Shown: positions 11,927 through 36,974 of the stretch, in pieces | Numbering within the stretch: the stretch's first letter is position 1 | How the letters are laid out: every line of letters begins with the position of its first letter | NCBI GenBank assembly: GCA_016934315.1 | Contig: JAFGSY010000027.1 | Coordinates: 1 to 64,000, forward strand | DNA from: Candidatus Anaeroferrophillus wilburensis | GTDB lineage: Bacteria > Desulfobacterota > Anaeroferrophillalia > Anaeroferrophillales > Anaeroferrophillaceae | DNA length: 64,000 nt | Reading direction: 5' to 3' | The notes under the pieces: model-generated | Told to the model about the DNA's origin: nothing | The model's database searches: none | The model's input: the letters and a program-made list of their open reading frames with translations, nothing else | Position numbers and translations under genes: made by a program

Positions 11927-11968
11927 TTTATTGGAAAAGTGATTATTTTCTAATGAGAGGTGCTTAGC

Positions 11969-12883: not shown

Positions 12884-12925
12884 ATGGATTAGGTGCCGTT
12901 TCGTGGTGGGGAAAGATCCTGATCA

Positions 12926-19655: not shown

Positions 19656-20057
19656 TTTACATACCTCGAGGCTGGTGGTTTGCTGTTTTATCCTTAATTG
19701 AAAACATGGTAGCAATTTTTGAGCCGTTTTTTTGTTTTTGCCATGCGGTGAACCGGTTTTTCCCGCCAACTCCTTGCCCGCCGCCCGGTTTTTCAGTCCG
19801 CCAACTGTCCTCATTCCTTGTGTTTCCCTTGTTTCAGTAAATCTCCTGATTCGTTTGTGCCGTATCCTGTCTGTCCGTGCTCTTGGGGCTGTTCAGGCCT
19901 GGAAGGCATTAGCTATTGTTAATCGCAGTAAAAAGGTTGGTTATTTCACCAAGTCCATTTGGGAAAATAACCAACCTTTTTACTATGAAAATGATTGGCG
20001 GAACATCTCGTAACTGTAACTCATTGAAAAATTAGAGCTAAATTGATTTTAAGCGAG
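19656..20057. other. Divergent intergenic region without a gene
   Basis: This gap separates the minus-strand synthase-like gene from the plus-strand NHL gene. It holds a large perfect hairpin (19927-19984) and, at its right end, a sigma-54-type promoter. I see no convincing short gene in it. Confidence 0.6.
19927..19984. repeat. Perfect 20-bp inverted repeat with 18-nt loop
   Basis: The left arm AGTAAAAAGGTTGGTTATTT (19927-19946) is exactly complementary to the right arm at 19965-19984. The 18-nt loop itself contains CCAA and TTGG, which can extend the stem. It may be a terminator for an unseen small RNA, a bidirectional terminator, or a small mobile repeat. Confidence 0.7.
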
Positions 20058-20074
20058 TTGGCACAGAGGTTGCT
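20058..20074 (+). promoter_or_regulatory. Candidate sigma-54 (-24/-12) promoter before the NHL/OmcS-like cluster
   Basis: TTGGCACAGAGGTTGCT matches the sigma-54 consensus with the invariant GG (20060-61) and GC (20072-73) separated by 10 nt. Transcription would begin near 20085, so the ATG at 20088 would be almost leaderless, which agrees with the absence of a Shine-Dalgarno there. Confidence 0.5.
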
Positions 20075-20087
20075 CTCTCTCATTGGT

Positions 20088-21080
20088 ATGAAGACACAAC
20101 GCACACATAGCAGCACTGCCATCATCACCGCCATCATGATCAGCATGTTTGTGGCGGCAACTGCCTTTGGGATGGAGATTCAATTCCAATACCGGTTGGC
20201 CAATTTTGATGGCATCGTGTCGTCCCTCTGGGCCCGGTTGGCCCTTGATAAGGAAACAACAGAGTTGTATGCCCTGGACCGGCATGAGCGGGAGGTGCGG
20301 ATTTTCAACGAAGCCGCCATGGAGGTTTTTGCTATCGGTGAGGATGTGGAGCTGGCCGGGGCAGATGATATCGCCCTTGGTGAGGAAGGCACGCTCTATG
20401 TTGTCTACGGTAATTCCCCCGAACATACCGTGCTGAAACTCAACTACAAAGGTGAAGAGGTTGGCCACCTGAGACTTTCCGGGGTGCCGGAAGAATTAAT
20501 GCCGTTCCATCCCGATCATGTTGAGTATCTGGATAACCGCCTGTACTTGGCAGACTCCAACGACCTGTCAATCATCATAGTTGAAGCAGATGGTCGCTTT
20601 CTTAAAGGCTATCGTTTGCCGGCTCTCTTGCAGCAGAATGCTGAAAAGCTTGCTCTTAATGTTGAAGATGGCCAGTTGAAAGACGATCGGCAGATTCCCG
20701 CCTCCTTCGGCGGCTTCTGTGTCGACCAGCAGGGTGCCATGTATTTCACCGTGCCGGCCATGTTTGCCGCCTTTAGGCTGAGTGCTGACGGTGAATTGCA
20801 GGGTTTTGGTCAACCGGGCAGCGCCGCCGGCAAGTTCGGCGTCGTCGGCGGCATCGGTACCGATGGTGCGGGCAACCTTTATATTGCTGATCGCCTGCGG
20901 TGCGTTGTCCTGATCTTTGACCGCAATTTCACCTTTCTGAAGGAGTTTGGCTACCGGGGCTCCCGGCCCGGCAGCCTGATTGTTCCCGATGATGTGGTTG
21001 TCGACGATGCCAGGGGAACGGTCTATGTTTCCCAGGCGGCCAATCGAGGGGTCAGCGTCTACAAGCTGATCTTCAACTGA
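20088..21080 (+). CDS. Secreted NHL-repeat beta-propeller protein
   Basis: A 330-residue exported protein. An N-terminal signal segment (MKTQRTHSSTAIITAIMISM...ATAFG) precedes a six-bladed propeller with NHL-type repeats, such as GTDGAGNLYIADRLRCVVLIFDR, FLKEFGYRGSRPGSLIVPDDV and DDARGTVYVSQAANRGVSVY. Start 20088 is chosen for the signal peptide; a TTG at 20043 is possible, and no clear SD is present. It lies directly upstream of the OmcS-like cytochrome, as NHL proteins do near some Geobacter cytochromes (recollection). It may help secretion, haem loading or polymer assembly, but no catalytic motif shows this. Confidence 0.78.
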   Translation: MKTQRTHSSTAIITAIMISMFVAATAFGMEIQFQYRLANFDGIVSSLWARLALDKETTELYALDRHEREVRIFNEAAMEVFAIGEDVELAGADDIALGEEGTLYVVYGNSPEHTVLKLNYKGEEVGHLRLSGVPEELMPFHPDHVEYLDNRLYLADSNDLSIIIVEADGRFLKGYRLPALLQQNAEKLALNVEDGQLKDDRQIPASFGGFCVDQQGAMYFTVPAMFAAFRLSADGELQGFGQPGSAAGKFGVVGGIGTDGAGNLYIADRLRCVVLIFDRNFTFLKEFGYRGSRPGSLIVPDDVVVDDARGTVYVSQAANRGVSVYKLIFN

Positions 21081-21336: not shown

Positions 21337-22503
21337 ATGAAGAAATTAACGTGTGCAATTGCCTGTATGGCCCTGCTGATGTTGGGATTTACCGGTACCG
21401 GATTTGCCTTCCACGGCGGCGGCGTGGCCCACTGCGATGGTTGTCATACCATGCATAACTCGGCTGACAACCCGGCTGAGGGGGCGGCAAATTCCATGCT
21501 CTTGACCGGCTCCGACGCCAGCTCCACCTGTCTGAACTGTCATGCCGGCGGTGGCGGCTACCATGTTATGAGCACCGACGGTTCCAATACCAATGCCGGC
21601 GGTGACTTTTACTGGGTAAACAATGCCTATACGCTGACAGTCCGGGGAACAGTTAACACCTACGCCGGCGATAATGCCGGTCACAACATGGTCGCGGCTG
21701 ACTACGGCATGACTGCCGATGCCCGGGCCGATAATCTCCAGGCGCCCGGCGGCACCTATGCTGCCAATCTGCTGGGCTGCACCAGCTGCCACGATGCCCA
21801 CGGCCAGGTCAACGGCGGGACCAGCAACGGTACGGCGCCGATTTCGGCCTCCGGTTCCTACGGGGCTGCCGAACCGACGGATGGCTCCATTCTCGGCAAC
21901 TACCGTCTGCTTGGTGACAGTCAGTACACGGCCGGCAATACCGATGCCGATGGTTTTGCCTTCAACGCCGATGCCCCGATTGCCCGGGCCAGCGGTTCCA
22001 ACGGCGCCTCGGTTGACTACGGTTCCAATATGTCCGAATGGTGTGCCAACTGCCATGGCGATTTCCTGGTGGGTGGATCCGCCGCCCATAAGCATCCGGC
22101 CGGCAATGATGTGCATCTGAACGGCTATGGCACCAACTATAACTCCTACGTTGCCACCGGTGATTTCACCGGCCTGCAGGCAACCTCTTATGATGCTCTG
22201 GTGCCCTTCGAACGCGGCGTTGTCACTGGTACTTGGGATCTGGATCCCACCAGCACGGCCGGTCCGGACAACAATTCCAATGTCTCATGTCTGACTTGCC
22301 ACCGCGCCCATTCGTCGGCATTCAACAACATGGGCCGCTGGGACTTCGAGGTCGAGATGCTGGCTGAATCCCATGTGTTGGAATCTGCTGATGTACCCGC
22401 CACCGCGGTACCGTACTATGCCGATGGCGCGGCGATCGATATCGTGACCAAGTATGGTGAGTATCAGCGTTCACTGTGTAACAAATGTCACGTGCAGGAT
22501 TAA
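21337..22503 (+). CDS. omcS: OmcS-like hexahaem c-type cytochrome, probable extracellular nanowire subunit
   Basis: A 388-residue secreted cytochrome. The signal peptide ends GFA|FHGGG near residue 24. Six CXXCH sites: C33, C65, C148, C236, C318 and C381. The sequence follows Geobacter OmcS as I remember it: mature N-terminus FHGGGVAHCDGCHTMHNS (OmcS FHSGGVAECEGCHTMHNS), AGHNMVA, SEWCANCH, HPAGND, SNVSCLTCHRAH and C-terminal YQRSLCNKCHVQD. Candidate distal haem ligands are also kept (H26, H40, H76, H116, H155, H253, H325). OmcS polymerises into haem-lined filaments that carry electrons outside the cell. The gene has its own GEMM-I riboswitch and a good SD (AAGGAGG). It is shorter than OmcS (about 407 mature residues), mainly in loops. 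Confidence 0.9.
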   Translation: MKKLTCAIACMALLMLGFTGTGFAFHGGGVAHCDGCHTMHNSADNPAEGAANSMLLTGSDASSTCLNCHAGGGGYHVMSTDGSNTNAGGDFYWVNNAYTLTVRGTVNTYAGDNAGHNMVAADYGMTADARADNLQAPGGTYAANLLGCTSCHDAHGQVNGGTSNGTAPISASGSYGAAEPTDGSILGNYRLLGDSQYTAGNTDADGFAFNADAPIARASGSNGASVDYGSNMSEWCANCHGDFLVGGSAAHKHPAGNDVHLNGYGTNYNSYVATGDFTGLQATSYDALVPFERGVVTGTWDLDPTSTAGPDNNSNVSCLTCHRAHSSAFNNMGRWDFEVEMLAESHVLESADVPATAVPYYADGAAIDIVTKYGEYQRSLCNKCHVQD

Positions 22504-23005: not shown

Positions 23006-24475
23006 GTGGGATGTGAACGTCGGCGGCGGCAGGAGAACATCAGGCGCACGGGATCGGTACTGCAGTTTCTTGCGGCGCTTAGGCTGCTGTTGATTCTGTT
23101 CTTGCTTTTTTCAGTTGGTTGCAGTCTTGAGGCGATCGTTGAGGATGCTCCGACCCTGGGGACGAAAGGAAGGGTTTTCGTCTATCTGCAGCCGCTGCCA
23201 CAGGAAAGCCGTTCATTGACGTTTGTCCTCGAGCAGCTGGCAGCGGTTAGTGAAGATGGTTCTTTGAAACCCCTCGAATCATCCTCTCTGGAGATTAAAG
23301 GTGATGCTTTCAGCGGCCGCCAGAAGCTGCTGACGGCGGCAATCCTGCCTTCCGGCAGCTATCAGGGACTTTCCCTGGTGATTGCCGCGGCCACGATAAG
23401 CGGTGAGGAAGGGGAGACAAACCTGCTGGTTCCCGAGCAGCCACTGTTGATATCACAGAAATTCCACCTCCTGCCCGGCAATGACCAGGCGCTTTTTCTC
23501 ACCCTGTTGCCGGAAAACCTGGTTGCCCAGGGCTACCGCTTTTCCCCTTCCTTTTCCCTTGGCGTTCCCCGTCGGCTGACCCGCAATTTCACCGGCTTTG
23601 CCTCCCAGACTGCGACCCATACGGTAACGGTTTTCAATAAGCGGACGATGGAGGTGTTTTGTCTTCTGAGCCCGGGGACCACCCCCCGGGGTATGGCCCT
23701 CGATGATCGCAGCGGGCGGCTGTATGTTGCCCTGGCCGGTGATGACGCGGTGGCGGTGATCGATGTCGATACCCTGGAAGAGGTGGGGCGGGTCGGGCTC
23801 TTTTTTGGTGATCGTCCGGTGGAACTGGCATTGGCGGTGAACGGTGATACCCTGGTTGCCGCCAACCAGGGGTCCCGGACCCTGAGCATTATCGATACCG
23901 CCTCTCTCTATGAAAGACACAGGGTGCAGCTCAACAGCGAGCCGGCCTGGGTGGTGGCCGACAGATCCGGCCGGCAGGTCTACGTTCTTCAGGCCATGGA
24001 TAACTCGGTGGCGATTATTGATCTGGCCAGCGGTGTGCAGCTCACCACCATTGTTCTCGATGAAGTGCCGGAACATGGTGCTTTGAGCCGGGACGGCAAT
24101 CAGCTGTATGTTGTCGGCCGGCGGTCAGGCGATCTGCTGGTGGTTGATCTGCAGCAGCTCGCAGTGGTGGATAAAATTTTTGTCGGTGGTGGTTCCTCAG
24201 CCATCACGGCTGATTCGCGCACCAACCTGGTGTATATCGGCAAGCAGTCGGGTGAGGTGGTTCTGGTTGATGCGGCGGCGCAGATGGTTCTTGACTCATG
24301 TATGGTACCCGGCGATGTGAGACATCTGGCCATTGATGGTGAAGAAAACAGTCTTTTTATCCTGTCGGCTGGTGAGCGCCTCATCCACAAGGTGGATCTG
24401 GTCGGCAAACAGGGCCTGGGCAGGGTGGAAACGGCAGAGGGGGGATATTCCCTGGTGATCATGGGTGCGCGGTAG
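23006..24475 (+). CDS. YVTN-type beta-propeller lipoprotein
   Basis: A 489-residue lipoprotein. The GTG start follows AGGAGG; a long basic n-region precedes the lipobox LFSVGC (about residue 38). The first ~150 residues form a beta-rich domain similar in layout to DUF4382 (GRVFVYLQPLP...ILPSGSYQGLSLVI). A propeller of YVTN-like repeats follows: GMALDDRSGRLYVALAGDDA, VDLASG-type turns, GDTLVAANQGSRTLSIIDT, SGRQVYVLQAMDNSVAIIDL, TNLVYIGKQSGEVVLVD. It is the first gene of a compact run (5 bp before the barrel gene) and is likely an outer-membrane or surface partner of the electron-transfer proteins. No enzyme motif is seen. Confidence 0.78.
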   Translation: MGCERRRRQENIRRTGSVLQFLAALRLLLILFLLFSVGCSLEAIVEDAPTLGTKGRVFVYLQPLPQESRSLTFVLEQLAAVSEDGSLKPLESSSLEIKGDAFSGRQKLLTAAILPSGSYQGLSLVIAAATISGEEGETNLLVPEQPLLISQKFHLLPGNDQALFLTLLPENLVAQGYRFSPSFSLGVPRRLTRNFTGFASQTATHTVTVFNKRTMEVFCLLSPGTTPRGMALDDRSGRLYVALAGDDAVAVIDVDTLEEVGRVGLFFGDRPVELALAVNGDTLVAANQGSRTLSIIDTASLYERHRVQLNSEPAWVVADRSGRQVYVLQAMDNSVAIIDLASGVQLTTIVLDEVPEHGALSRDGNQLYVVGRRSGDLLVVDLQQLAVVDKIFVGGGSSAITADSRTNLVYIGKQSGEVVLVDAAAQMVLDSCMVPGDVRHLAIDGEENSLFILSAGERLIHKVDLVGKQGLGRVETAEGGYSLVIMGAR

Positions 24476-24480
24476 AACTT

Positions 24481-26652
24481 ATGGAAAAGCAGCTGCCCCT
24501 CATGCTGACGATAATGGTTTTGGTCACCGTCCTGGTTCTGGTGACCGCGGTTGGCAGCCTGCATGCGGAAGGCATCAGCCTGTTGACCGATCTGGAGTAT
24601 TTCAATACCAATGATACCATAACCGACAAGGAGAGCGGCAGCAAAACCGATAACCAGTTTACCCGTTTTACCCAGGTATACAACGTGGCCATGGCAAAAC
24701 AGCTTTTCCCCAACCTTTCTTTCAGTGCCGGCAGTTTTTTCGAGTTCGACAAGTTGAACAATGATGCCGACGGCACGGAGACGGAGTTTCGGGAACGAAC
24801 CATGCGGCCTTTTATGGAGGTGAATCTGGCCAACCCGCTTTACCGCGCCGGGTTTGTCTACCGGCGGACGGAAAAGAAAGAGAATCCCAGTGCCATGCCC
24901 ACCACCAGAACGTTCATGGATGACTACAGCGGCAACTTCAACTGGCGGCCGGTGGCCTTGCCATCACTCAATATCAATTATCGCCGGAGTCTGGTTCATG
25001 ATCAGCCGAAAACCGTCGACCAGACGAATGAAACCTTAAGTCTGCTCAGCAAGTATGTCTATAAAGGGGTGGAGTTTGACTATACCTACAACCGCCGGCA
25101 GGAAAAGGAGCAGCTCAGCGATGCCGGTTCACTGACCCAGATTCACAACGGCGGCATTTTCACTTCCCGGAATTTTTATGATAATCGTCTCAGACTCAGC
25201 GCTGGTTCAAGGGTTGATTACACGGAAACGGTCTTTTCCGGTGCGGGGGAAAGCCGGGTCAGGACGGCATTCCCAGGCAGTGCTTTTTACCTCCTTGATG
25301 ATTCCACCCCTGTCAGCAACCTGGCTGGAGAGTTTACCGATGTCGGCGGCGCGGCACCGCTCAGCACGGTGAATATCGGCAGAAACGGCGGTTTCAACCC
25401 GGTGAGCGCCGGCCTTGATTTCAGTGTGAGAACGGAGGTTGATGCGGTCTATATCCTGCTGGAAAAAGATGACCAAAACCCGAACCTGGCGATTCCGAGC
25501 CAGATAGCCGGAATTGCCGCTTCCTTCACCTGGTCGCTTTATGCCAGTGATGATCGGGAAAACTGGACGGCACACGGTATTGCCACCGTCACCTATAACA
25601 GCTTCTACCACCGGTTTGAGATTGTCTTTGCCTCTCCGATAGATGCTCAGTATCTCAAAATTGTTGTCTTGCCGCAGGTGTTTGCCCCGGGAGAAATTCG
25701 CTTAGCGGATATTCAAGCCTTTACCACGGTTGCGGGCGGTTCCCGGGTGACGATTGAAAACCTGAACCAGTTTTATACGTTTGGCGCCGAATGGCGGCCG
25801 ACAACCAGCACCAGCGCCGGCTATAATGTCAACTATCGCCACCGTGAGACAAAGCCGGATGGTGAGGTCAGGACTTCCCTGGTCAATGGTGTCAATGTCC
25901 GTCACCAGTTCAATCCGGTCTTTTCCACCACTGCCCGGCTGTTGCGCAGCGATGCCACCCAGACGGGAGAGAGTGACCTGGTCAGTTATACCTACAGCAC
26001 CGCCCTGCGGGCCGATTTTTTTGATACCTTGAGGCAGTCACTGATCTACAGCGGCACCAGAAGCGATGAAGATGAGGGCAGCAGTACCACCAACGCTGTC
26101 GTTCTCCGTACCAGTGCCGATCTCTATGAAGGCTGGAGCATGAATCTTGATCTTGGCTACGCCTGGAACAGTCTTCAGGAGAGCGGTGACCAGACCAGCA
26201 AGTTTCTGCGTCTTGATACCGTGGTGGTTCCCCATAATAAACTGCATCTTGACTTTTCCTATGAAGTTTATTGGAATACCCAGGAGGATGAAGAGGACAG
26301 CACCCGTCAGAAAGGCAGCATCCATAGCTTGCTGGTCGTAACGGATACTATCAACATGACGGCGGATTATAATTTTACCGACCGTCAGGGGCCGGATAAT
26401 GACTCCACTTTTTTGCAGGATTATGCCTTAAACTGGGCACCGTTCAGGGATGGTACCCTGCAGTTCTCGCTGTCCTATACCGAGTCGATCAGCTCGGAGA
26501 ACAACGAGGAAAAATTCCTCTCACCGAGCATCAAGTGGCAGGTTGCCAAGGGGATGCTCATGGAACTGCGCTATAATACCGGTACCATAGAAACTGCCAG
26601 AGAAAAACTGGATACGGATAATGTTTACTGTAACCTGAGACTGTTTTATTGA
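24481..26652 (+). CDS. Outer-membrane beta-barrel protein with an inserted discoidin-like domain
   Basis: A 723-residue exported protein. The signal peptide ends GSLHA (about residue 29). Most of the chain is alternating amphipathic strands with Tyr/Phe/Arg ends, e.g. TAGFNVNYRHRETKPDG-like and LHLDFSYEVYWNT-like strands, and it ends in an aromatic strand (NVYCNLRLFY), as barrel proteins do. About residues 300-420 resemble an F5/8 type C (discoidin) domain: WSLYASDDRENWT, FEIVFASPIDAQYLKIVV, GEIRLADIQAF. Placed between a propeller lipoprotein and multihaem cytochromes, it is a candidate porin sheath for electron or protein passage; this role is inferred from context. Confidence 0.75.
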   Translation: MEKQLPLMLTIMVLVTVLVLVTAVGSLHAEGISLLTDLEYFNTNDTITDKESGSKTDNQFTRFTQVYNVAMAKQLFPNLSFSAGSFFEFDKLNNDADGTETEFRERTMRPFMEVNLANPLYRAGFVYRRTEKKENPSAMPTTRTFMDDYSGNFNWRPVALPSLNINYRRSLVHDQPKTVDQTNETLSLLSKYVYKGVEFDYTYNRRQEKEQLSDAGSLTQIHNGGIFTSRNFYDNRLRLSAGSRVDYTETVFSGAGESRVRTAFPGSAFYLLDDSTPVSNLAGEFTDVGGAAPLSTVNIGRNGGFNPVSAGLDFSVRTEVDAVYILLEKDDQNPNLAIPSQIAGIAASFTWSLYASDDRENWTAHGIATVTYNSFYHRFEIVFASPIDAQYLKIVVLPQVFAPGEIRLADIQAFTTVAGGSRVTIENLNQFYTFGAEWRPTTSTSAGYNVNYRHRETKPDGEVRTSLVNGVNVRHQFNPVFSTTARLLRSDATQTGESDLVSYTYSTALRADFFDTLRQSLIYSGTRSDEDEGSSTTNAVVLRTSADLYEGWSMNLDLGYAWNSLQESGDQTSKFLRLDTVVVPHNKLHLDFSYEVYWNTQEDEEDSTRQKGSIHSLLVVTDTINMTADYNFTDRQGPDNDSTFLQDYALNWAPFRDGTLQFSLSYTESISSENNEEKFLSPSIKWQVAKGMLMELRYNTGTIETAREKLDTDNVYCNLRLFY

Positions 26653-26679: not shown

Positions 26680-27261
26680 ATGAAAAAAATGATGCGGACC
26701 ATGACGCTGCCGGTGGTGCTTTTTTCCCTTCTCCTGTTGGTTGGCTGTGCCGCTGTCCATGAAGGGGTGTATGTCAACCAGATGGTCGATTTCGCTGCCC
26801 TGCAGAAGGTGGCGGTCATGCCGCTGCAGAATTTTTCCGAACGGGATGAAGGTGCCGAGCGGGTGAGGGACACCTTCATGAGCATGCTCCTGGCCACGGA
26901 GGCGGTCTATGTCCTGCCGGCCGGCGAAGTGGCCCGCGGCATCAGCCGGGCCGGCATCCGATCGCCGGCGACTCCTGCGGCTGAGGAGATTAAAAGCCTG
27001 AAGTCCATTCTCGGGGTGGATGCGGTGGTTACCGGCAGCCTGCGGGAATATGGGGCGGTACGCTCCGGCTCAAGCTCGGCCAATATCGTTTCGTTAAGTA
27101 TCCAGCTGATTGAAGCCGAGACCGGGGCGGTCATCTGGTCCGGCTCGTCAACCAAAGGGGGGATAACGGTGACTGACCGTCTGTTCGGCGGCGGCGGCCG
27201 ACCCATGAACGATGTGACCGTTGAGGTCGTCAATGACTTGCTTGACAAACTTTTTCAATAA
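26680..27261 (+). CDS. CsgG/GNA1162-like outer-membrane lipoprotein
   Basis: A 193-residue lipoprotein with lipobox LLLVGC (about residue 23). The body has the pattern of CsgG- or GNA1162-type proteins: KVAVMPLQNFSERDEGAERVRDTF, LGVDAVVTGSLREYGAV, SIQLIEAETGAVIWSGSSTKGG. In curli systems CsgG forms a secretion pore; other relatives are LPS- or flagellum-linked. The 3' end overlaps the next gene, which carries two similar domains. In this cluster a secretion or envelope-assembly role for the cytochrome filament is plausible but unproven. Confidence 0.68.
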   Translation: MKKMMRTMTLPVVLFSLLLLVGCAAVHEGVYVNQMVDFAALQKVAVMPLQNFSERDEGAERVRDTFMSMLLATEAVYVLPAGEVARGISRAGIRSPATPAAEEIKSLKSILGVDAVVTGSLREYGAVRSGSSSANIVSLSIQLIEAETGAVIWSGSSTKGGITVTDRLFGGGGRPMNDVTVEVVNDLLDKLFQ

Positions 27262-28681
27262 AAGATTGTGGCTGACGGTAGTGCTGCCAGCCCTGCTGAT
27301 CACCGGCTGCGCGCATCTCGATCAGCAGGCGGTGCTTACCATGGATTTTTTTGCGGTGGAGCAGGAGCATAGTAGCCCCATCGGTTTGCCTGTCATTCGC
27401 TGGAAAGCCGCTGTTTCCGGAGGCCGGGGGCGGATCAGCTATGAGTTTCGTTCCCGGATGCAGAGCGTAGAAATGCTTGAACAGCGCGGGTCCTCACCAG
27501 TGTGGGAGTGGATGCCAGCAAAGCCCGGTATCTATGAGGTGATGGTTCTGGCACGGGATGAGGCGGGGAATGAGGTGGATTCAGGCTGGTCGGCGCCTTT
27601 TTACGTTGATCAGCCGATCAGCAGGAAAAGCACCATTGCCGTTCTGCCGCTGGAGAACCTCAGTGGTGAGAAAGCTCCCCTGGAGCAGATCAGCAGTGTG
27701 ATGATCAAGAAACTGGAAGATCTGGGTTTTCACCTGCTGGCTGATGAGCGGCTTGAAACATTCCGCCGGCGGCATCGCATGCGTTATGTCGGCGGCATAA
27801 ACAGCAAACTTTCGCAGGCAATGCGGGACGAAGCCGGTGTCGATGCCTGCCTGATTACTTCGCTGGAAGCCTATCAGGAGAAATATCCCCCCCAAGTGGC
27901 CCTGATTGCCAGACTTGTCCAGACCGGCAGGGAGCCTGCTATTGTCTGGATGGACAGCGTGGGGATGACCGGTGAGGATGCCCCAGGCCTGCTTGGCCTG
28001 GGCCGGATAAAAAACCCTGAAAAGCTGGCGGCAAGAGCGGCCGGCCGACTGATTGATTCACTGTCAGCCAGATTGGAAAACGTTCAGCACGGCGATGAAC
28101 AACCTTTTGTCAGCAGATCTCTGCCTGGGAATGGTGCCAGGCAGCTGACCGGTCCTCAAGGGGTGAAACGGCGTTATCTGCCAAAGGATTTTTTCCGTTC
28201 ACCGGCTGTTGATCCGGGGAAGGTCTATCGGGTTGCCGTGGTTCCCTTTTTTGACCTTGCAGTAAGGAAATATGCCGGGCGGATTATGGCACTGCACTTT
28301 GTCAAGGAACTTCATCAGCGGGCGAATCTGGTGGTTGTGGAACCGGGGCTGGTGCGGGAAGAGCTGTTCAGATTCAGAGCCGTGATGGCAGCGGGACCGT
28401 CATTGGCCATCACTGATCTGCTCACCAGTGAGCAGTCTCTGGGTGTTGACCTGGTGCTGTCGGGAAAAGTTTTTGATTATCAGGGTGAGATCGGAACGGC
28501 CAAGGTTGACTTCTCGGTCCAGGTTTTTGAAAAATACAGCCGTGAAGTTGTCTTCGCCTCGACAACCTATGCTGCGGGTGACCAGGGGGTGTTTTTCTTT
28601 AATGTCGGCAGGGTTCGTTCAGCGCACAATCTCTCGGATGAGATGACCAGGGCTGCCGTGACAACGATGATGAGCCCGTAG
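27233..28681 (+). CDS. Lipoprotein with tandem CsgG-like domains
   Basis: A 482-residue lipoprotein. The start at 27233 is set by GAGG 7 nt upstream and gives a signal peptide with lipobox LLITGC; it overlaps the previous gene by 29 bp in another frame. An immunoglobulin-like N-terminal domain (about 35-125, IRWKAAVSGGRGRISYEFR) is followed by two domains that each resemble the preceding protein: STIAVLPLENLSGEKAPL...GVDACLITSLEAY and YRVAVVPFFDLAVRKYAGR...GVDLVLSGKVFDY. The duplication suggests multimer formation in the outer membrane. Function is inferred only from neighbours. Confidence 0.65.
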   Translation: MTCLTNFFNKRLWLTVVLPALLITGCAHLDQQAVLTMDFFAVEQEHSSPIGLPVIRWKAAVSGGRGRISYEFRSRMQSVEMLEQRGSSPVWEWMPAKPGIYEVMVLARDEAGNEVDSGWSAPFYVDQPISRKSTIAVLPLENLSGEKAPLEQISSVMIKKLEDLGFHLLADERLETFRRRHRMRYVGGINSKLSQAMRDEAGVDACLITSLEAYQEKYPPQVALIARLVQTGREPAIVWMDSVGMTGEDAPGLLGLGRIKNPEKLAARAAGRLIDSLSARLENVQHGDEQPFVSRSLPGNGARQLTGPQGVKRRYLPKDFFRSPAVDPGKVYRVAVVPFFDLAVRKYAGRIMALHFVKELHQRANLVVVEPGLVREELFRFRAVMAAGPSLAITDLLTSEQSLGVDLVLSGKVFDYQGEIGTAKVDFSVQVFEKYSREVVFASTTYAAGDQGVFFFNVGRVRSAHNLSDEMTRAAVTTMMSP

Positions 28682-28761: not shown

Positions 28762-28938
28762 CGCAGGTGATTAGCGGCGGACACCTCGGAACCGCCCATG
28801 GACGGCCGGCGAGAATGAGCGAGAGCCATGCCGGAACATCCGGAGAAATTTCTTTCAGCTGTTTGTAGGGCAGCTCAGAACGTTGCGCCAATAGTAAAAG
28901 TAACGGTGATGGTTAAGGAAGGAATGACAGGTGATCTG

Positions 28939-30723
28939 ATGAAATCAGTGAAAAACGCAGTGCTGGCATGGGGTAGTGTCCTGGTGATCATGTTGTCGGT
29001 GGCTCCGGCATTCAGCCAAGCTCCCCGGGGGGAGATGGCCGGCGCCGCGGTGGTGGAAGGCGGCCAGCATATTTCGCTTGAAAGGCTGCTGGCGCTTCGT
29101 ATACCTCTTTTTTCCCCTCATTTTGCCGAGACCCCGGTTGCCCTGGTCAACGATGAACCGATCAAGATGTGGGAACTGGCGCGGGCACTTGTCTCCCGTG
29201 ACAGCGATGCCGGAGCCGGGGAGGGTGAGGCAATCCTTCAGGATCTTCTTGGACGGCTGATCAATATCCGGCTTATTGTCCAGGAGGCGAGAAATATCGG
29301 TTTGGACGAAGCGGAGAGCATGCAGGCTCTGTTTGCCGATTTTACCAAAAAAAGTCTGCTGCAGGAGCTGATTGACAACCAGATGAAGGACCTTGCTCCC
29401 GATCCTGACGAGGTGGAAGACCTTTACCGGCAGATGTCCCGCGAGGTGCAGATTCATACCCTGATTTTCAAACGAGCCGAAGACGCTGCTGAATTGCTCG
29501 AGGAGAGTGCCAAAGGAGTTGCTTTTGAACAGCTTGCGAGCACATATATTGCTGACGGCAAGGCAACCGACGAGCATAATGACGCGTTCATGAAGATCAG
29601 TGACCTGCTGCCCCAGGTAGGGGAGGCCGCCTACACGATGAAACCCGGTGAGGTCAGCAAACTGTTTCGTGCCCCGAAGGGCTTTGTCCTTTTTCAGCTT
29701 CGTGATGTTCGTTTTGTGGCCGACCCACAGGTGCAGGAGAAAGCCAGACAAATTGTCTATGAGCGCCTCAAGAAGAAGCGGGCCAGAGAATACAGTGATG
29801 AACTGATCGAAAAGCATGCAGTCATCGATGAAGAACTTTTTGAACAGCTCGATTTTGAGCAGGATGTTTCGGATTCCGTCAAAGAAGGAGAGAAAAAACC
29901 GGCTGATTTTGGCAAATTGCTGCAGGATCAGCGTGTCCTGGCCACCATCCGTGGCGGGGAACCGGGCACCATTACCGTGGCGGACCTGGCCAGGGAGTTG
30001 AAAGGGCAGTTTTTTCATGGTGTTGACAAAGCCGTCAAGTCGGGAAATATCAACAGTAGAAAAATTATTATTTTTTCCAACATGCTTTTCAAAATAACCG
30101 GCGACCTGGAAGCCAGGCTGCTGAAACTTGATCAGGAGCCCCGCTTTCGTTACACTTTACATGAATTTGAGCAGTCAACCCTTTTCGGTGCTTTTGTAGA
30201 CAAGGTGGTGGCGCCGGAGGTGAAGCTTGTCGAGGCTGAGGTAAGGCAGGTCTATGACGATCATCTGGATGAATACTCTTCCCCGGTGATGCTGCGGATC
30301 AAAAGCCTTGTTTTTGCCAAAAAGAAGGATGCCGACCATGCGTTTGATCGTCTTCACAAGGGGGCGGATTTCAGGTGGGTTTCGGGCAATGCCGTCGGCC
30401 TGGTTGACAAAAGCTCGCCGGGGGTCCTTGATTTTGAAAGCCAGCTGTTAACGTTGTCCACTCTGCCAGAAGGCCTGCGACAGCTGGTTAAGGAGCCCCG
30501 CCAGGGGGATTCTTTCATCTATGCCGCTCCCGGCGGCGACCTCCACTATGTGCTGTTTCTGGAGCAGGTATTTCCTCCCCAGGTGCAGCCTTTTGACAAG
30601 GTGAAAGCTCCCATCGCCAGGAAGCTTTATAATGAAAAAATCAAGCTGGCGGTTGATGAGTGGCTTGCCAAGCTGAAAGATGCGTATGAAACCCGGATTT
30701 TCATAACTGCCGTTGATGAGTAA
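28939..30723 (+). CDS. Periplasmic SurA/PpiC-type peptidyl-prolyl isomerase with two parvulin-like domains
   Basis: An exported chaperone of 594 residues. The start at MKSVKNAVLAWG is chosen for its signal peptide (cleavage near AFSQA) and the AGGTGAT upstream; earlier in-frame starts extend a non-signal sequence. It has a helical SurA-like N-domain (VALVNDEPIKMWELARALV, INIRLIVQEARNIGLDE), a first PpiC-like domain (about 195-300, VQIHTLIFK, AYTMKPGEVSKLFRAPKGFVLFQL), a helical linker, and a second PpiC-like domain (about 450-560, MLRIKSLVFAKKKDADHAF). Its place before two huge cytochromes suggests folding or assembly of the electron-transfer proteins. Confidence 0.8.
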   Translation: MKSVKNAVLAWGSVLVIMLSVAPAFSQAPRGEMAGAAVVEGGQHISLERLLALRIPLFSPHFAETPVALVNDEPIKMWELARALVSRDSDAGAGEGEAILQDLLGRLINIRLIVQEARNIGLDEAESMQALFADFTKKSLLQELIDNQMKDLAPDPDEVEDLYRQMSREVQIHTLIFKRAEDAAELLEESAKGVAFEQLASTYIADGKATDEHNDAFMKISDLLPQVGEAAYTMKPGEVSKLFRAPKGFVLFQLRDVRFVADPQVQEKARQIVYERLKKKRAREYSDELIEKHAVIDEELFEQLDFEQDVSDSVKEGEKKPADFGKLLQDQRVLATIRGGEPGTITVADLARELKGQFFHGVDKAVKSGNINSRKIIIFSNMLFKITGDLEARLLKLDQEPRFRYTLHEFEQSTLFGAFVDKVVAPEVKLVEAEVRQVYDDHLDEYSSPVMLRIKSLVFAKKKDADHAFDRLHKGADFRWVSGNAVGLVDKSSPGVLDFESQLLTLSTLPEGLRQLVKEPRQGDSFIYAAPGGDLHYVLFLEQVFPPQVQPFDKVKAPIARKLYNEKIKLAVDEWLAKLKDAYETRIFITAVDE

Positions 30724-30813: not shown

Positions 30814-32796
30814 ATGAAGCATATTCGAGGAACGGACAGATGCAGGATGTTGGTGGCCGCCATTCTCTGTTGTGGCGTGTTGTTTCTGGCCTTGGCTCCT
30901 TCAGCCGCTGCCAAGAAAAGGACGTTTAAGAAAAAGGAGTGTATCGACTGCCATGACACGTTTGCCAAGCAGTACCTGTCGAAGAAAAATGTTCATGCCG
31001 TGGTCCGGGAACAGCAGTGTGATGACTGCCATCTGCGCCACGGGATAGTGCCGAAACTGCTGCTGAAGGAGGAAGGCAACGAACTCTGCTACCGTTGCCA
31101 CAAAATTGAGGCTCTCCAGCTGGATCAAAAGGTGGTGCATACCGCCTTGCGGCGGGGAAAGTGTGTCTCCTGCCATGACCCCCACGCCTCCGATTCACCG
31201 GCACTCCTGTCAGCGGTTGGCAATGACATCTGTTTCCAATGCCATCAGCAGGACTCCTTTTCGGGCAAGGTTGTTCATGGTGTGGTTGAGAAGGAAGGCT
31301 GCCGGGCCTGTCATGATGCCCATGGTTCGGCTGAAAAAAACCTGCTGGTCAAACCGCCGGCTGAGCTTTGCATCTCCTGCCATGAACCGAAAACCGAGGA
31401 TTTCCGGCATGCTCATGGTGGCTACCCCGTGGCAACCGGCTCGTGTACCGTTTGTCATTCCCCCCATGCGTCTGATCAGGGAAAGCTGTTGAAAGCCAGT
31501 GTTCATGAGCCGGTGACTGCCGGTGAGTGTGATGCCTGTCACCAATCTCCAACGTCAGCAGATCCTTTTGCCACTACCGCCGATGCCCGGGAACTCTGCC
31601 TCACCTGTCACGAACGAAGCGATTTGATGGGTGACGGCACGGTTTCGCATGCTCCCTTTGCCGACGGCGATTGCCTTTCCTGTCATGATCCTCATACGGC
31701 TGCCAACCCTACGCTGCTTATTGCTCAAGGCAATCAGCTGTGTTTTTCATGCCACGAAAATACCGGGGTGAAAGTCCTGCATCCCCATGCTCCCATTGAG
31801 GGTGAGCGGGGCTGTCTTGCCTGCCATGCCCCCCATGCCGGCCGGCACAACGGTCTCCTGGACCTGGCCGGCGGCGATCTTTGTTTCAGCTGCCATGAAC
31901 AGATCAAGGACCGTGGCAAGGGGTTGCAGCATCAACATGAACCGTTTGTCGACCAGGAGTGCAGCGCCTGTCACAATTCCCATGGTTCCAATGCGGCCAA
32001 CATGCTTAATAATCGTACCGATGCCGTCTGCTATTCCTGCCATGTCGAACTGGAAAGCGAGTTCCAGCTCAGTGCCACCCATGAGCCGGTCAGGAAAGGC
32101 AACTGTACCGTCTGTCACCGTGGACACGCTTCTGATTATGGCAAGCTTCTTACCACTGATGGGTCGAAGCTGTGTGCCCAGTGCCACGAAGCTATGATGG
32201 GCAGGGAGAACGCTGAAAGTCTGCACCCACCCTTCGAAGAGGCTGCCTGCCAGGACTGCCATGCCCCTCATGCCAGCAATTTCCCGGGCATGATCAGTGA
32301 AGACCAGTATTCGTTGTGTCTCGGCTGCCACGGGCAGATCAGCGATGAGCTTCAGACAGCGAAAAGTGCCCATGAACCGGTGCGCGCCGGCACCTGCACC
32401 GGCTGCCACAGTCCCCACAAGGCGAGCCTTGATGTGCTGATGCTGGCTCCCAGCCCTGATCTGTGCCTTACCTGTCATCAGGATATCAAGGCGCAGATGG
32501 AAACCCAGAGGGCCCATTCGCCAGCTGCCAGGGACTGTCTCCGCTGTCATCAGCCCCATGCGGCTGCTGAACCGGCTCTGCTGAACAATCCCCAGCAGGT
32601 TTTGTGCGCCGAATGTCATGAAGCTGATGCCGAAACTTTCAAGCGGGCCCATCTCCGAATTGAGGCGTCAGCCATGGACTGCATGAACTGTCATGCCCCC
32701 CATGCTTCAAAAGATCCGAAATTTTTCAAATCAAACGTGCATGCTCCCTTTGCGTCAAAGTCATGTGATGCCTGCCATATCGCAGAAAAAGAGTAA
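30814..32796 (+). CDS. 26-haem c-type cytochrome (doubled CXXCH repeats)
   Basis: An exported cytochrome of 660 residues from the ATG at 30814 (MKHIRGTD), with a signal peptide ending SAAAK. I count 26 CXXCH motifs, about one per 25 residues, arranged as repeated pairs in which CxxCHxPHAS-type sites alternate with LCxxCH sites; the His in PHAS/AHGS and in VHEPV-type turns can be distal ligands. There is no lipobox and no other domain. It is separated from the 16-haem gene by 11 bp. Such proteins form long haem wires; together with the barrel upstream it may carry electrons across the envelope. Confidence 0.92.
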   Translation: MKHIRGTDRCRMLVAAILCCGVLFLALAPSAAAKKRTFKKKECIDCHDTFAKQYLSKKNVHAVVREQQCDDCHLRHGIVPKLLLKEEGNELCYRCHKIEALQLDQKVVHTALRRGKCVSCHDPHASDSPALLSAVGNDICFQCHQQDSFSGKVVHGVVEKEGCRACHDAHGSAEKNLLVKPPAELCISCHEPKTEDFRHAHGGYPVATGSCTVCHSPHASDQGKLLKASVHEPVTAGECDACHQSPTSADPFATTADARELCLTCHERSDLMGDGTVSHAPFADGDCLSCHDPHTAANPTLLIAQGNQLCFSCHENTGVKVLHPHAPIEGERGCLACHAPHAGRHNGLLDLAGGDLCFSCHEQIKDRGKGLQHQHEPFVDQECSACHNSHGSNAANMLNNRTDAVCYSCHVELESEFQLSATHEPVRKGNCTVCHRGHASDYGKLLTTDGSKLCAQCHEAMMGRENAESLHPPFEEAACQDCHAPHASNFPGMISEDQYSLCLGCHGQISDELQTAKSAHEPVRAGTCTGCHSPHKASLDVLMLAPSPDLCLTCHQDIKAQMETQRAHSPAARDCLRCHQPHAAAEPALLNNPQQVLCAECHEADAETFKRAHLRIEASAMDCMNCHAPHASKDPKFFKSNVHAPFASKSCDACHIAEKE

Positions 32797-32807
32797 CGGA
32801 GGACAGA

Positions 32808-34082
32808 GTGAAAGTACGCTATCTCTTTCTTATGATGACTGTTCTGGTGCTGCCGCTTCTTCTGGTTCCGGCTGTCGTGGATGCCAAGGATAGCATGAAA
32901 CTTAAAAGCGGCGCCAAGGGCAAGCTGTGCCTGGAATGTCATGAGGGTTTCAGGGAGAAACTGAAGAAATCTCATGTCCATACCCCCTTGGCGGAAGGTG
33001 AGTGCACCGGCTGTCACAACCCCCACACCTCCTCGCATGAGCTGCTCATGGCGGCCGAACCGAAGGATATCTGCTACCAATGCCATGAGCGCATGGTTCC
33101 TGAAGGGGCGGCCAGTGCTCACCAAGTGGTGGTTGATGGCCAATGTACTACCTGCCATGACCCCCATGCAGCCGATAACCGGATGAACCTCATCCGGTCG
33201 GGAAGTGAACTCTGCTATGGCTGCCATGAAGAACTGGGGCGCAAGGTTAGTGACAGCAAGTTCCAGCATTCGCCGGTCAAAAAAGACTGCCTGAAATGCC
33301 ACAACCCCCATGCTTCCAGCGAGCATCCTGCTTTGTTGGTGAAAAGCGTGCCGGAGCTGTGCAAAACCTGTCACCAGACGGATAAGACGACTTTCAAAAA
33401 CCTGCATGCAAATTATCCCGTGGACCAGGCCGACTGTACCTCTTGTCATGATACCCATGGTTCCAGCCAGGCTGCCATGCTTTATGATAATGTCCACCAG
33501 CCGGTCAGCAAGGGAATGTGCAAGCAATGCCATGCCGCTCCTGATGCTGCCGAACCGCTGAAGTTGAAACAGGCCGGTTATGAGTCCTGCCAGGGGTGCC
33601 ACTACGACATGGTGACCGATACCCTCAACCTGAAGCGGATTCACTGGCCGGTGGTCGATGGCAAAGGATGTCTGAACTGCCATACCCCCCACGCGTCAGC
33701 GACCGGCAGCCTGCTGCTGAAGCCTCAGAAAGCCTTGTGCGCCGGCTGCCATACCGATACCATGGCCCGACAGGAGCGCTCATCAACCAAGCATCCGCCA
33801 ATTGACGAGGGCAACTGTACCGCCTGCCATGCCCCCCATGGTTCCAATAACCAGTTTATCATGACCCGGGCGTCGGTGATGGATGTCTGCGGCGACTGCC
33901 ATGATTGGCAGACCCATTCATCCCATCCCATCGGGGAAAAAGTTGTTGATCCCCGCAACAAAAACAGTACTGTCCAATGCTTAAGCTGTCACCGCTCTCA
34001 CGGAACCGAACACAAACATTTTCTCTATTTCGCGACAACCAATGAACTGTGTATCCAGTGTCATGCAGGGTATCGGAGATAA
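32808..34082 (+). CDS. 16-haem c-type cytochrome (doubled CXXCH repeats)
   Basis: An exported cytochrome of 424 residues. The GTG start follows GGAGG. The signal peptide ends VVDAKD (about residue 26). There are 16 CXXCH motifs, with the same paired pattern as the upstream 26-haem protein (CTGCHNPHTSS, CTTCHDPHAAD, CTACHAPHGSN), so the two probably arose by duplication and differ in repeat number. Together they could hold 42 haems. It lies 4 bp before the second NHL gene, so these genes are cotranscribed. Confidence 0.92.
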   Translation: MKVRYLFLMMTVLVLPLLLVPAVVDAKDSMKLKSGAKGKLCLECHEGFREKLKKSHVHTPLAEGECTGCHNPHTSSHELLMAAEPKDICYQCHERMVPEGAASAHQVVVDGQCTTCHDPHAADNRMNLIRSGSELCYGCHEELGRKVSDSKFQHSPVKKDCLKCHNPHASSEHPALLVKSVPELCKTCHQTDKTTFKNLHANYPVDQADCTSCHDTHGSSQAAMLYDNVHQPVSKGMCKQCHAAPDAAEPLKLKQAGYESCQGCHYDMVTDTLNLKRIHWPVVDGKGCLNCHTPHASATGSLLLKPQKALCAGCHTDTMARQERSSTKHPPIDEGNCTACHAPHGSNNQFIMTRASVMDVCGDCHDWQTHSSHPIGEKVVDPRNKNSTVQCLSCHRSHGTEHKHFLYFATTNELCIQCHAGYRR

Positions 34083-34086
34083 AACC

Positions 34087-34989
34087 ATGAAAAAAACCTT
34101 TCTCCTGTTTGTCGGTCTTTTGCTGCTGGTTGTTTGGGGCCACTCTTCTCCTGCCCACGGGGCAAAAATCCGCTATCTCGCTTCGGTGTATGGTGACCGG
34201 CAGGGAGCCGGGCTGAAATATCCGGAGGGTGTCGCCTGTACCGAAAATCTCTTATTTGTTGCCGATACCGGCAACAGCCGGGTTGTGCGTTATTCGTATG
34301 AGGGGCGGGTAGTCACCGGTCAGGCCGAGTATGCACTGCCCAATACCTCCCCCATCAAACTGGAGGTGGATTCCCGCGGCTATCTCTATGTCCTCGACGG
34401 CCGTGAGCGGCGGATTATTCTTCTGGGAACGGAGGGCAACGTTGAGGGGTATTTTTCCCCTAAGGGGGTTCCCGGCGGCGGGCAGGTGGTTCCCAGAAGT
34501 TTTGCCGTTGGTCATGATGACTCGGTTTACCTGCTGGATGTTTTTTCCCGGTCGTTGCTGGTTCTGGATCGGACAGGTCAGTATCAGCGGCAACTCCCTT
34601 TTCCCGGGGATATCGGGTTTTTTTCCGACGTCGCCGTTGACCGCCAGGGAACAGTTTACCTGCTTGACAGTGTAGCGGCTGCCGTTTATGTGGTGCCGGC
34701 CAATGTCGGCGAGATCAGCCTGTTGAGTTCAAACCTGCGGGAATACGTAAATTTTCCAACCAACATGACTGTTGACCGTCATGGAGTTCTCTACTTGGTT
34801 GATCAGCATGGCGGCGGTCTTGCCCTGCTGAATAAGGACGGCTCATTCCTTGGCCGCAAGCTGAGTATGGGATGGAATGAAAGCCAGCTCTCCTACCCGG
34901 CCCAGATCTGCATCAGCGGCGGGGGCAGTATCTTTATCGCCGACCGTAACAACAGCCGGGTCCAACTGTTTTCTCTCGAAGAAAAGTGA
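34087..34989 (+). CDS. Secreted NHL-repeat beta-propeller protein
   Basis: A 300-residue exported protein with signal peptide MKKTFLLFVGLLLLVVWG...AHGAK and NHL repeats: KYPEGVACTENLLFVADTGN, VDSRGYLYVLDGRERRIILLG, SVYLLDVFSRSLLVLDRTG, GTVYLLDSVAAAVYVV, and the ending SIFIADRNNSRVQLFSLEE. SD GGAGA precedes the ATG. It closes the cytochrome cluster, which thus has an NHL protein at both ends; the two are diverged. A scaffold or maturation role is inferred. Confidence 0.8.
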   Translation: MKKTFLLFVGLLLLVVWGHSSPAHGAKIRYLASVYGDRQGAGLKYPEGVACTENLLFVADTGNSRVVRYSYEGRVVTGQAEYALPNTSPIKLEVDSRGYLYVLDGRERRIILLGTEGNVEGYFSPKGVPGGGQVVPRSFAVGHDDSVYLLDVFSRSLLVLDRTGQYQRQLPFPGDIGFFSDVAVDRQGTVYLLDSVAAAVYVVPANVGEISLLSSNLREYVNFPTNMTVDRHGVLYLVDQHGGGLALLNKDGSFLGRKLSMGWNESQLSYPAQICISGGGSIFIADRNNSRVQLFSLEEK

Positions 34990-35222: not shown

Positions 35223-36974
35223 ATGCGTCTGGCTGTCCCTATCGTGCTGTTGCTCCTTACCTGTTTTTTGCTGCTATCTCCGGTCCTGGTGTCCGCGGCA
35301 TCCCTTGTCATCCGGATTGAAGGGATCGAAGACGCCCCTCTGGAAAACGTCACCAAGGCACTGGTGTTGCCGGCTGCCCTCCAGCGTGATGATGCTGAGC
35401 TCAAACCCCTTTGGCGGCGCCGCTTGGTTCGGCAGGCGCCTGAAAAGGTTCGCCTGGCCCTTGAACCCTTCGGCTATTATCATGCGGTGGTTAACGTCCG
35501 TCTCAACGAGCAGGCCAGTCCGCCCCAGCTTGAAGTAACCATCGTGCCGGGGGATCCGGTACGCATCATCCGGCAGCAGATCGAGATTGAAGGTAATCGT
35601 GAGCTGCTGGCAACGGCCATAAGCTCGTTTCCTCTCCATGAGGGGGATATTTTCCGCCATGATCTCTATGAACAGGGGAAGTCCCAGCTGTTGGGCTTGG
35701 CAGTCGATCATGGTTATCTGGATGCCGAATTTCGCCGCCACCAGGTGGTCGTGGACCCTGATGCCCTGAGTGCGTCCATCAACCTGCTGCTGGTTACCGG
35801 CGAACGTTACACCATCGGCAAGGTCCATTTTTCCGGGGCATCCGACTATCCGGAGAAATTTCTTGTCCGCTATCTCACCGTCCGGCCGGGAAGCTTTTTC
35901 TCCTATGCCCAACTGGGCAAGTCCCGGCAGAACCTGCTGGACAGCGACCGTTTCCGGGAGGTTGTCATCCAACCCCGCAAGGAGGAGGCTGTCGATGGCC
36001 AACTGCCGGTGGAGATTGTCCTTGATCCATCCCCCCCACGCCGGCTGCGGCCGGGGATCGGCTACGGCACCGATACGGGTGCCCGGCTCAGTGTCCGCGG
36101 CCAGGATCTCAATCTTCTCCACCGGGGCCATGAACTATACGGTGACCTGCTTATTGCTCAGCTGCGGCAGGATATCAGCTTCTCCTACATCCTGCCGGCC
36201 AGCCATGATATCAATACCATGACCGCCCTTCGCGGCGGCTATCGGGCCGAAAATCTCAAGAGTTATGATACCCGCTACGCCTATGCCGAGGCTGAACAGC
36301 TTTACGGTTTGGGGCCCCAGAAAACCGGCTCGTTCTTCCTCCGTTTTCTCTCGGAACGTTCTGATCTCAGCGGCGATAGTGTTTCCTCCGAACAGCTCAT
36401 CCCCGGCATTCGTTACCGCCAGTCAAAGCTCGACAACCCGGTCAGGCCCTCAAGGGGCTATCGGTGGTCGGTGGAAGGTCGTGGTGCCGTTGATCTGGTT
36501 CTTGCCGGCCTGCCGGTGCTCCAGGTGCTTGGCGATCTCCAGGTTATTCAGCCGCTGCCCTGGGAGAGTCTGCTGCTACTGCGGGGGGCTGCCGGTTCCA
36601 CGCTGCAGAAGGATGCCTTTCAGGATCTGCCGGCGTCACTGCGGTTTTTCACCGGCGGCGACAATTCGGTGAGAGGCTACGCCTACCAGTCCCTGGGACC
36701 GACCAACGGCCAGGGAGAGGTTGTGGGCGGCCGGCATTTTCTGGCCGGCAGCATCGAGGTCGAGCGGCGGGTGGCCACGGATTGGGGATTGGCTGCCTTT
36801 TTCGATATGGGCAATGCGTTTGACGACTTCACCCGGATCGATGCCAGAAAGGCGGCCGGCATCGGCATCCGCTACTACACACCCGTCGGCCCGGCCCGGC
36901 TTGACATTGCCCGGACGATTGCCGATCCTGATTCCCGTTTTCGCATTCATATTGGTTTGGGGGTAAGCTGGTGA
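35223..36974 (+). CDS. tamA: TamA-type Omp85 outer-membrane assembly protein
   Basis: A 583-residue outer-membrane protein: signal peptide (MRLAVPIVLLLLTCFLLLSPVLVSA-type), POTRA domains (about 30-260; VTIVPGDPVRIIRQQIEIEG, YTIGKVHFSGASDYPEKF), and a C-terminal 16-strand Omp85 barrel with RPSRGYRWSVEGRGAV, FFTGGDNSVRGYAYQSLGP (the conserved VRGF-type loop) and a terminal strand ending RFRIHIGLGVSW. It overlaps the TamB gene by 4 bp, the usual tamA-tamB pair that inserts selected outer-membrane proteins and supports lipid transport. Confidence 0.9.
   Translation: MRLAVPIVLLLLTCFLLLSPVLVSAASLVIRIEGIEDAPLENVTKALVLPAALQRDDAELKPLWRRRLVRQAPEKVRLALEPFGYYHAVVNVRLNEQASPPQLEVTIVPGDPVRIIRQQIEIEGNRELLATAISSFPLHEGDIFRHDLYEQGKSQLLGLAVDHGYLDAEFRRHQVVVDPDALSASINLLLVTGERYTIGKVHFSGASDYPEKFLVRYLTVRPGSFFSYAQLGKSRQNLLDSDRFREVVIQPRKEEAVDGQLPVEIVLDPSPPRRLRPGIGYGTDTGARLSVRGQDLNLLHRGHELYGDLLIAQLRQDISFSYILPASHDINTMTALRGGYRAENLKSYDTRYAYAEAEQLYGLGPQKTGSFFLRFLSERSDLSGDSVSSEQLIPGIRYRQSKLDNPVRPSRGYRWSVEGRGAVDLVLAGLPVLQVLGDLQVIQPLPWESLLLLRGAAGSTLQKDAFQDLPASLRFFTGGDNSVRGYAYQSLGPTNGQGEVVGGRHFLAGSIEVERRVATDWGLAAFFDMGNAFDDFTRIDARKAAGIGIRYYTPVGPARLDIARTIADPDSRFRIHIGLGVSW

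Follow-up and report, generated by a model that had tools for sequence, protein, structure and literature searches.

The window analysed here, a 64,000-nucleotide stretch of Candidatus Anaeroferrophillus wilburensis (assembly GCA_016934315.1, contig JAFGSY010000027.1, positions 1 to 64,000), contains two adjacent genes for c-type cytochromes, one with 26 haems (30814..32796, + strand) and one with 16 (32808..34082, + strand, GTG start). Sequence comparisons across the phylum indicate that both haem numbers were already set when the sampled lineages diverged, and that the two proteins are paralogues matching in register. They are probably the OscI-type (GSU2495) and OscJ-type (GSU2494) cytochromes of an extracellular electron transfer locus that accompanies OmcS (osc, overlapping 'Oet'), in which they would act as envelope wires. 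The gene pair itself has already been published, and the window locus adds a further member. The electron route across the periplasm to cytochrome nanowires is unsettled, and haem numbers that stay at 26 and 16 amid residue change are not easily accounted for by storage or drift, pointing to a length-critical wire.

A recount over the containing open reading frames found 26 CXXCH motifs at 30814-32796 and 16 at 32808-34082, the same numbers as in the initial annotation, with an intergenic gap of 11 bp (32797-32807) and a combined length of 660 + 424 = 1,084 residues (about 1,080 in that annotation). Both proteins are composed of doubled-CXXCH units, as had been noted, and PF09699 ('doubled CXXCH') matches dominate both of them (26-haem protein: E 2.6e-149, 485.1 bits vs a cut-off of 20.6, 12 stretches; 16-haem protein: E 1.4e-89, 294 bits vs 20.6, 8 stretches). 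These E-values, together with the conservation in relatives, exclude a chance origin of the haem arrays. Motif spacing is 23–28 residues in the 26-haem protein and 23–30 in the 16-haem protein, and CXnCH motifs with n = 3, 4 or 10–17 were absent from both. The two cytochromes share doubled-CXXCH units and detectable sequence similarity with MtrA/DmsE (TIGR03508; 6r2q chain A), even though members of that family have 10 haems instead of 26 and 16. The TIGR03508 score of the 26-haem protein (314.1 bits, cut-off 192.2) is a total of six separate stretches, and that of the 16-haem protein (179.7 bits) falls under the cut-off. Sequence matches to 6r2q chain A, which we take to be MtrA (the structure listing gives another name), had E-values of 2.3e-15 and 9.7e-18.

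To compare haem numbers, 395 genomes of the phylum were searched with a profile built from 12 26-haem proteins, scoring at most three candidates in each. Matches at E 1e-90 or better were found in 51 of the 395 genomes, using a profile that favours full 26-haem resemblance and may have missed strongly altered relatives. We counted 51 full-length places (including both copies in the window's own genome and two each in genomes G170, G209, and G310), which are not independent events because there are near-copies among the loci (L055-L058, L086). Fifty of them were separate genes with 26 sites, and one was fused to its 16-haem partner. Among the separate genes, 49 encode 26 CXXCH motifs and one (L060) encodes 25 plus a CX4CH. 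The complete 16-type genes (n = 49) comprise 43 with 16 CXXCH motifs and six with 15 plus a CX4CH in the missing position. At loci L061, L067, L090, L094, L098, and L102, motif 14 of the 16-haem protein is CX4CH, not CXXCH. Of the 57 loci read, 47 have complete copies of both genes; the counts exclude contig-cut genes (26-type: L066, L070, L071, L072; 16-type: L086, L091), and L089 showed no 16-type gene within the stretch examined. This constancy extends to homologues sharing as little as 32% (26-type) and 33% (16-type) identity with the window proteins among those first aligned. The approach is able to see unit-number variation, because haem counts of 35 (L038) and 31 (L044) occur in two homologues of another PF09699 family of the phylum, at 42% identity. 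Thus, we consider both haem numbers, as read from these genes, to have been fixed before the sampled lineages diverged. In four distant loci from a contig scan (two Myxococcota, one Ignavibacteriota, and one Bacteroidota; L001-L004), no 26+16 pair was found in the stretches available. The Ignavibacteriales locus carries adjacent genes for a 20-haem and a 34-haem cytochrome (L003:8382-12535).

The doubled unit of the initial annotation can be refined into two alternating single-haem classes, labelled E and O. E motifs have a conserved histidine about 8 residues before and another about 7 residues after the first cysteine, whereas O motifs have neither. In the 26-haem protein, motifs 1, 8, 25, and 26 are unpaired, and E-E junctions of 28 residues each occur at motifs 8-9 and 25-26. 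Across 49 proteins, this spacing was kept in 91 of 98 E-E junctions, and the E-to-O spacing was 23 in 499 of 539 cases. The alignment of 12 26-haem proteins contains 52 invariant histidines, 26 in CXXCH motifs and exactly 26 outside them (two per motif at 12 E motifs, and one each at motifs 9 and 26). A second ligand is therefore available within the protein for every haem, suggesting that all of its haems are bis-histidine ligated. In the 16-haem proteins (14 aligned), histidine occurs in at least nine rows at 14 non-motif columns, and the ligand balance is less clear-cut. Other columns of the aligned homologues are mostly variable while the 42 haem sites stay conserved.

The relationship between the two proteins was examined using unit similarity averaged across loci for all 26 x 16 unit pairs. 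Two diagonals were outstanding: offset 0 (units 1–16 vs 1–16), the best among offsets overlapping all 16 units, and offset 17 (units 18–26 of the longer chain vs units 1–9 of the shorter). Permutation within unit class gave values of 0.00035 (offset 0) and 0.006 (offset 17), which are rough because units were treated as exchangeable within a class. Offset 0 also fits profile matches, in which 13 hits from 16-haem genes aligned to the 649-position 26-haem profile with starts at 5–16 and ends at 404–415. In a tree of concatenated units (named by protein and unit number), E units are separated from O units except for the long-branched 16_u15. The tree contains groups of 26_u9, 26_u26, and 16_u9 (100/99), of 26_u7 and 26_u24 (98/96), and of 26_u4 and 16_u4 (95/87), and a group of 26_u8, 16_u8, and 26_u25 (89/99) that also includes 16_u15. 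Some other starred joins fit neither offset (26_u6 with 16_u11, and 26_u5 with 26_u14). The common origin of the units proposed in the initial annotation is thus borne out by the offset-0 register, the 13 profile matches, and the unit-tree groups; separate origins, the outcome named there as refuting it, were not seen in the unit tree, in which only 6 of 39 inner branches are starred and the program warned of long branches. These sequence relationships indicate that the 16- and 26-haem proteins are paralogues matching in register, and that the unit 1–9 pattern recurs at the end of the 26-haem chain, pointing to an old internal duplication. The most economical scenario is that a chain of the unit 1–9 type was ancestral and became extended, that this end was copied in the 26-haem chain, and that both paralogues were then fixed.

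The genes around the pair provide the context for its assignment. On one strand lie, in order, a propeller, a putative barrel, two lipoproteins, an isomerase, the 26-haem and 16-haem cytochromes, and an NHL propeller, with gaps of 5, 27, -41, 146, 90, 11, and 4 bp. Homologues were sought in 21 loci (20 stretches from relatives, some of them incomplete or chosen for other reasons, and the second copy in the window's own genome). The OscH-like peptidyl-prolyl isomerase/chaperone (28828..30723, + strand; Rotamase_2, E 1e-21) has homologues in 17 of the 21, and so does the NHL beta-propeller protein (34087..34989, + strand; PF01436, E 1e-15; homologues at E < 1e-40). Both lipoprotein families occur in 18/21 loci, with cross-hits between the two: a GNA1162-like lipoprotein in the OscF-like position (26680..27261, + strand; PF05643, E 6.4e-11), of which a homologue in the same genome matches LpoB and, weakly, CsgG, and a lipoprotein in the OscG-like position (27221..28681, + strand) that had no Pfam match. 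The putative outer-membrane beta-barrel in the OscE/OetI position (24481..26652, + strand; homologues in 14/21) is presumed to be a barrel from its length, its position, and the literature. Upstream of it, a beta-propeller in the OscD-like position (23006..24475, + strand) is YncE-like (E 8.4e-07), has a lipoprotein-like N-terminus when judged by eye, and is found at E < 1e-40 in 12/21 loci. The candidate nanowire subunit is a hexahaem protein with six CXXCH motifs (21337..22503, + strand); its phmmer match to OmcS (6ef8_A; E 8.5e-65, residues 25-388 against 1-407) identifies it as a full-length homologue. A second six-bladed beta-propeller lies further upstream (20043..21080, + strand; PF17170, E 4.8e-05) and belongs to the same family as the NHL gene. 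The window has these features of the osc, or 26+16-haem, operon: adjacent 26- and 16-haem genes, an isomerase beside the 26-haem gene, an NHL propeller, and a nearby OmcS-like hexahaem gene.

Skennerton et al. 2017 described neighbouring genes for cytochromes with 26 and 16 haems, accompanied by a prolyl isomerase and a six-bladed propeller, in an operon found in SEEP-SRB1, Desulfofervidus, Desulfuromonadales, and others, with two copies in one genome, that of Desulfurivibrio alkaliphilus, and with peptides detected at methane seeps (PMC5539420). The window resembles this operon in the 26/16 adjacency, the isomerase, and the six-bladed propeller. Unlike the SEEP-SRB1 operon as described, from an organism in which no homologue of known conduit porins was found (PMC5539420), it has a putative barrel and lipoproteins upstream. 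Compared to the Geobacter sulfurreducens osc operon (with omcS, omcT, and GSU2501), the window shares the 26-haem gene and its neighbour, the folding factor, the secretion genes, and nearby hexahaem genes, and differs in having the hexahaem gene upstream, together with a propeller, and TamA/TamB genes after the block. The product of GSU2494 (oscJ) presumably has 16 haems. GSU2495 encodes a 26-haem protein (PMC2996986; PMC12977616), and GSU2500-GSU2493 form an eight-gene block tied to OmcS maturation and secretion (PMC12977616). GSU2495 and GSU2494 have been named oscI and oscJ, and both products are listed as periplasmic (PMC13194489). In the proposed Geobacter scheme, OscH is a folding factor and OscE-G are secretion proteins. 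Murali et al. 2023 described an overlapping conduit, OetABI, with multihaem cytochromes and a barrel beside OmcX- and OmcS-like genes (PMC10553843); unlike Oet, the window locus lacks small cytochromes beside its barrel. The fixed number across lineages, the in-register relation, the distal histidine count, and the fusion described below were not found in those parts of the literature on the pair that were available to us.

We assign the pair to osc based on haem counts and family, gene order, shared neighbours, the OmcS homologue, the published operon, the distal histidines, the fixed numbers, and the 6r2q match. According to this assignment, both cytochromes would be exported (signal peptides were judged by eye), each would fold as one extended haem wire distantly like MtrA/DmsE, and the wires would be periplasmic or sit next to the barrel at the outer membrane. 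Electrons may move through them between carriers in the periplasm and a nanowire of OmcS type encoded by the gene at 21337, with the isomerase, barrel, and lipoproteins predicted to fold and export that nanowire. The 26-haem protein of the window has, by eye, a signal peptide with an AxA-like end and, by a simple pattern, no lipobox, as do its closest relatives. Among 50 26-haem proteins, 32 have a lipobox-like pattern ahead of the first haem, with some of the 18 negatives borderline (e.g., L059, L062, L064), whereas the 17 16-haem proteins inspected showed no convincing lipobox.

Several points weigh against the assignment of the pair as osc wires. The four core proteins were suggested to be unattached to either membrane (PMC5539420), whereas most 26-haem proteins, though not that of the window, carry a lipobox-like motif, and homologues were not expressed in the published metal-respiration studies (PMC5539420). 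The osc literature examined, as far as it was available, gives no role for OscI or OscJ, and the window genes are matched to oscI and oscJ by haem number, order, and partners. High-current-selected strains carry a frameshift at position 868 of oscJ compared to Geobacter strain PCA (PMC13194489), and work cited in PMC13194489 found OmcS dispensable both for anode biofilms and for the reduction of Fe(III) oxide; neither the 16-haem protein nor the nanowire is thus indispensable in Geobacter. The putative barrel had no Pfam match. AlphaFold2 gave no usable structure for either cytochrome (26-haem protein, window sequence as the first of 2 rows, mean pLDDT 31.3; 16-haem protein, first of 3 rows, 35.4).

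Some of these points would suit a role of the two cytochromes in nanowire assembly or maturation (as an electron source for folding, in haem handling, or as a docking platform) instead of as working wires. The genes lie between the isomerase and the propeller in a cluster tied to OmcS maturation and secretion, expression was not reported in metal respiration, and an oscJ frameshift is listed for high-current strains. However, 42 haem sites are kept amid variable columns, as would be expected of wires, and an OmcS-like gene (E < 1e-40) was found in only 10 of the 21 loci, several of which are incomplete stretches, so that we regard an assembly role as unlikely. The cytochromes might also serve in the periplasm as charge-buffering electron stores (capacitors) that lack a fixed path, given the many haems per protein and the mostly variable non-motif residues. 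We consider this very unlikely, because haem number should be free to vary in a store, yet the numbers are frozen and the 28-residue E-E spacing is kept.

The least probable explanation, proposed in the initial annotation, is that the difference between 26 and 16 comes from recombination that still adds and removes units: both proteins repeat one pair of unit classes, L038 and L044 differ by four haems, and the 26-haem chain carries the offset-17 duplication, yet 26 sites were present in 50/50 and 16 sites in 49/49 complete separate genes. Growth or loss of units by recombination thus holds only for very old events and is not supported as a continuing process, and the tempting variable-repeat reading is corrected by a sample with no unit-number variation, unlike the 31/35-haem doubled-CXXCH family. 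The units are also ancient, because DNA identity is low (best pair of 93-nt unit windows 56%, median 37%, 781 pairs) and Tandem Repeats Finder detected no tandem array of the haem unit within the two genes, where its single hit was a 9-bp array (32673-32695). Units were most alike at the orthologous position elsewhere (26.4%), compared to 19.9% for units of the same class in the same protein and 18.5% for those in other genomes. The within-protein excess, a point in favour of ongoing exchange, is slight, and strong homogenisation is absent.

A more specific form of the wire model is that OscI and OscJ are halves of one fixed-length 42-haem wire, a ruler across the periplasm, and the haem numbers would then be frozen because such a wire must span the periplasm from side to side. 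The 26-haem chain extends 0–9 residues beyond haem 26, an unpaired E unit (49 proteins), and the 16-haem chain starts with an unpaired unit nearer the O class, so that end-to-end OscI and OscJ would complete a doubled motif. One natural fusion was found in genome G170 (L122:571-3720, - strand; also L125), where the two genes form one 1,049-residue frame with 42 CXXCH motifs. Residues 1–652 of the fusion resemble 26-haem proteins (36% to L123 over 667 aligned positions), the remainder matches 16-haem proteins (35–37% identity), there is no signal peptide between the halves, and the distance from motif 26 to motif 27 is 23 residues, the usual E-to-O spacing. G170 also has a separate 26+16 pair (L123). 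Two lipoprotein genes adjoin the fusion gene, and no isomerase or barrel was detected within the 19.9 kb examined around it. The fusion is weak evidence, since it is one case in one assembly and could be an assembly artefact, though its junction has the spacing of an intact doubled motif. No further 42-haem fusion was found among the 395 genomes at a strict 1e-130 threshold, with at most two candidates scored per genome. A '42 heme' protein did not appear among the literature matches listed, and we do not claim that the fusion is unpublished. With the Geobacter oscJ frameshift making it slightly less likely, we treat the ruler as a doubtful proposal, for which the fusion offers a ready construct for testing end-to-end docking.

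The same genome contains a second locus (L005:1607-19788, contig C14) that has a separate set of 26- and 16-haem genes with neighbours of their own, including two OmcS-like genes and two 12-haem genes beside the barrel homologue, the latter an Oet-like trait. A recent duplication of the two loci was rejected, because the copies fall in different well-supported sets in the gene trees. L054 joins the window copy with support of 100/99 in the tree of 26-haem proteins and 100/100 in that of 16-haem proteins, whereas the L005 copy belongs to another set of four (100/100 and 100/98). By these trees, the second locus diverged anciently from the window locus. Another contig of this genome (C21; L007) carries a cluster of 12-, 13-, and 11-haem and smaller multihaem cytochromes. 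No dsrA was found in the genome at E 0.001 in a 98.19% complete assembly, and a sulfate-reducing host is therefore unlikely. This makes outward respiration perhaps a little likelier than electron uptake for sulfate reduction.

Directly downstream of the block (35223-40609) are a TamA-like gene and a long gene taken as TamB by position; they were rejected as part of the system because homologues occur in 0/21 related loci. Promoter-like sites (17 vs 9.2 expected) and terminator-like sites (17 vs 16.1 expected) were not used to set operon limits. Further upstream, a phosphonate-binding-type protein, a histidine kinase with one CXXCH, and a sigma-54 response regulator (11960-15783) are possibly a sensor module of the cytochrome system, and their homologues adjoin the 42-haem fusion gene in L125 (56–59%, 44%, and 56% identity).

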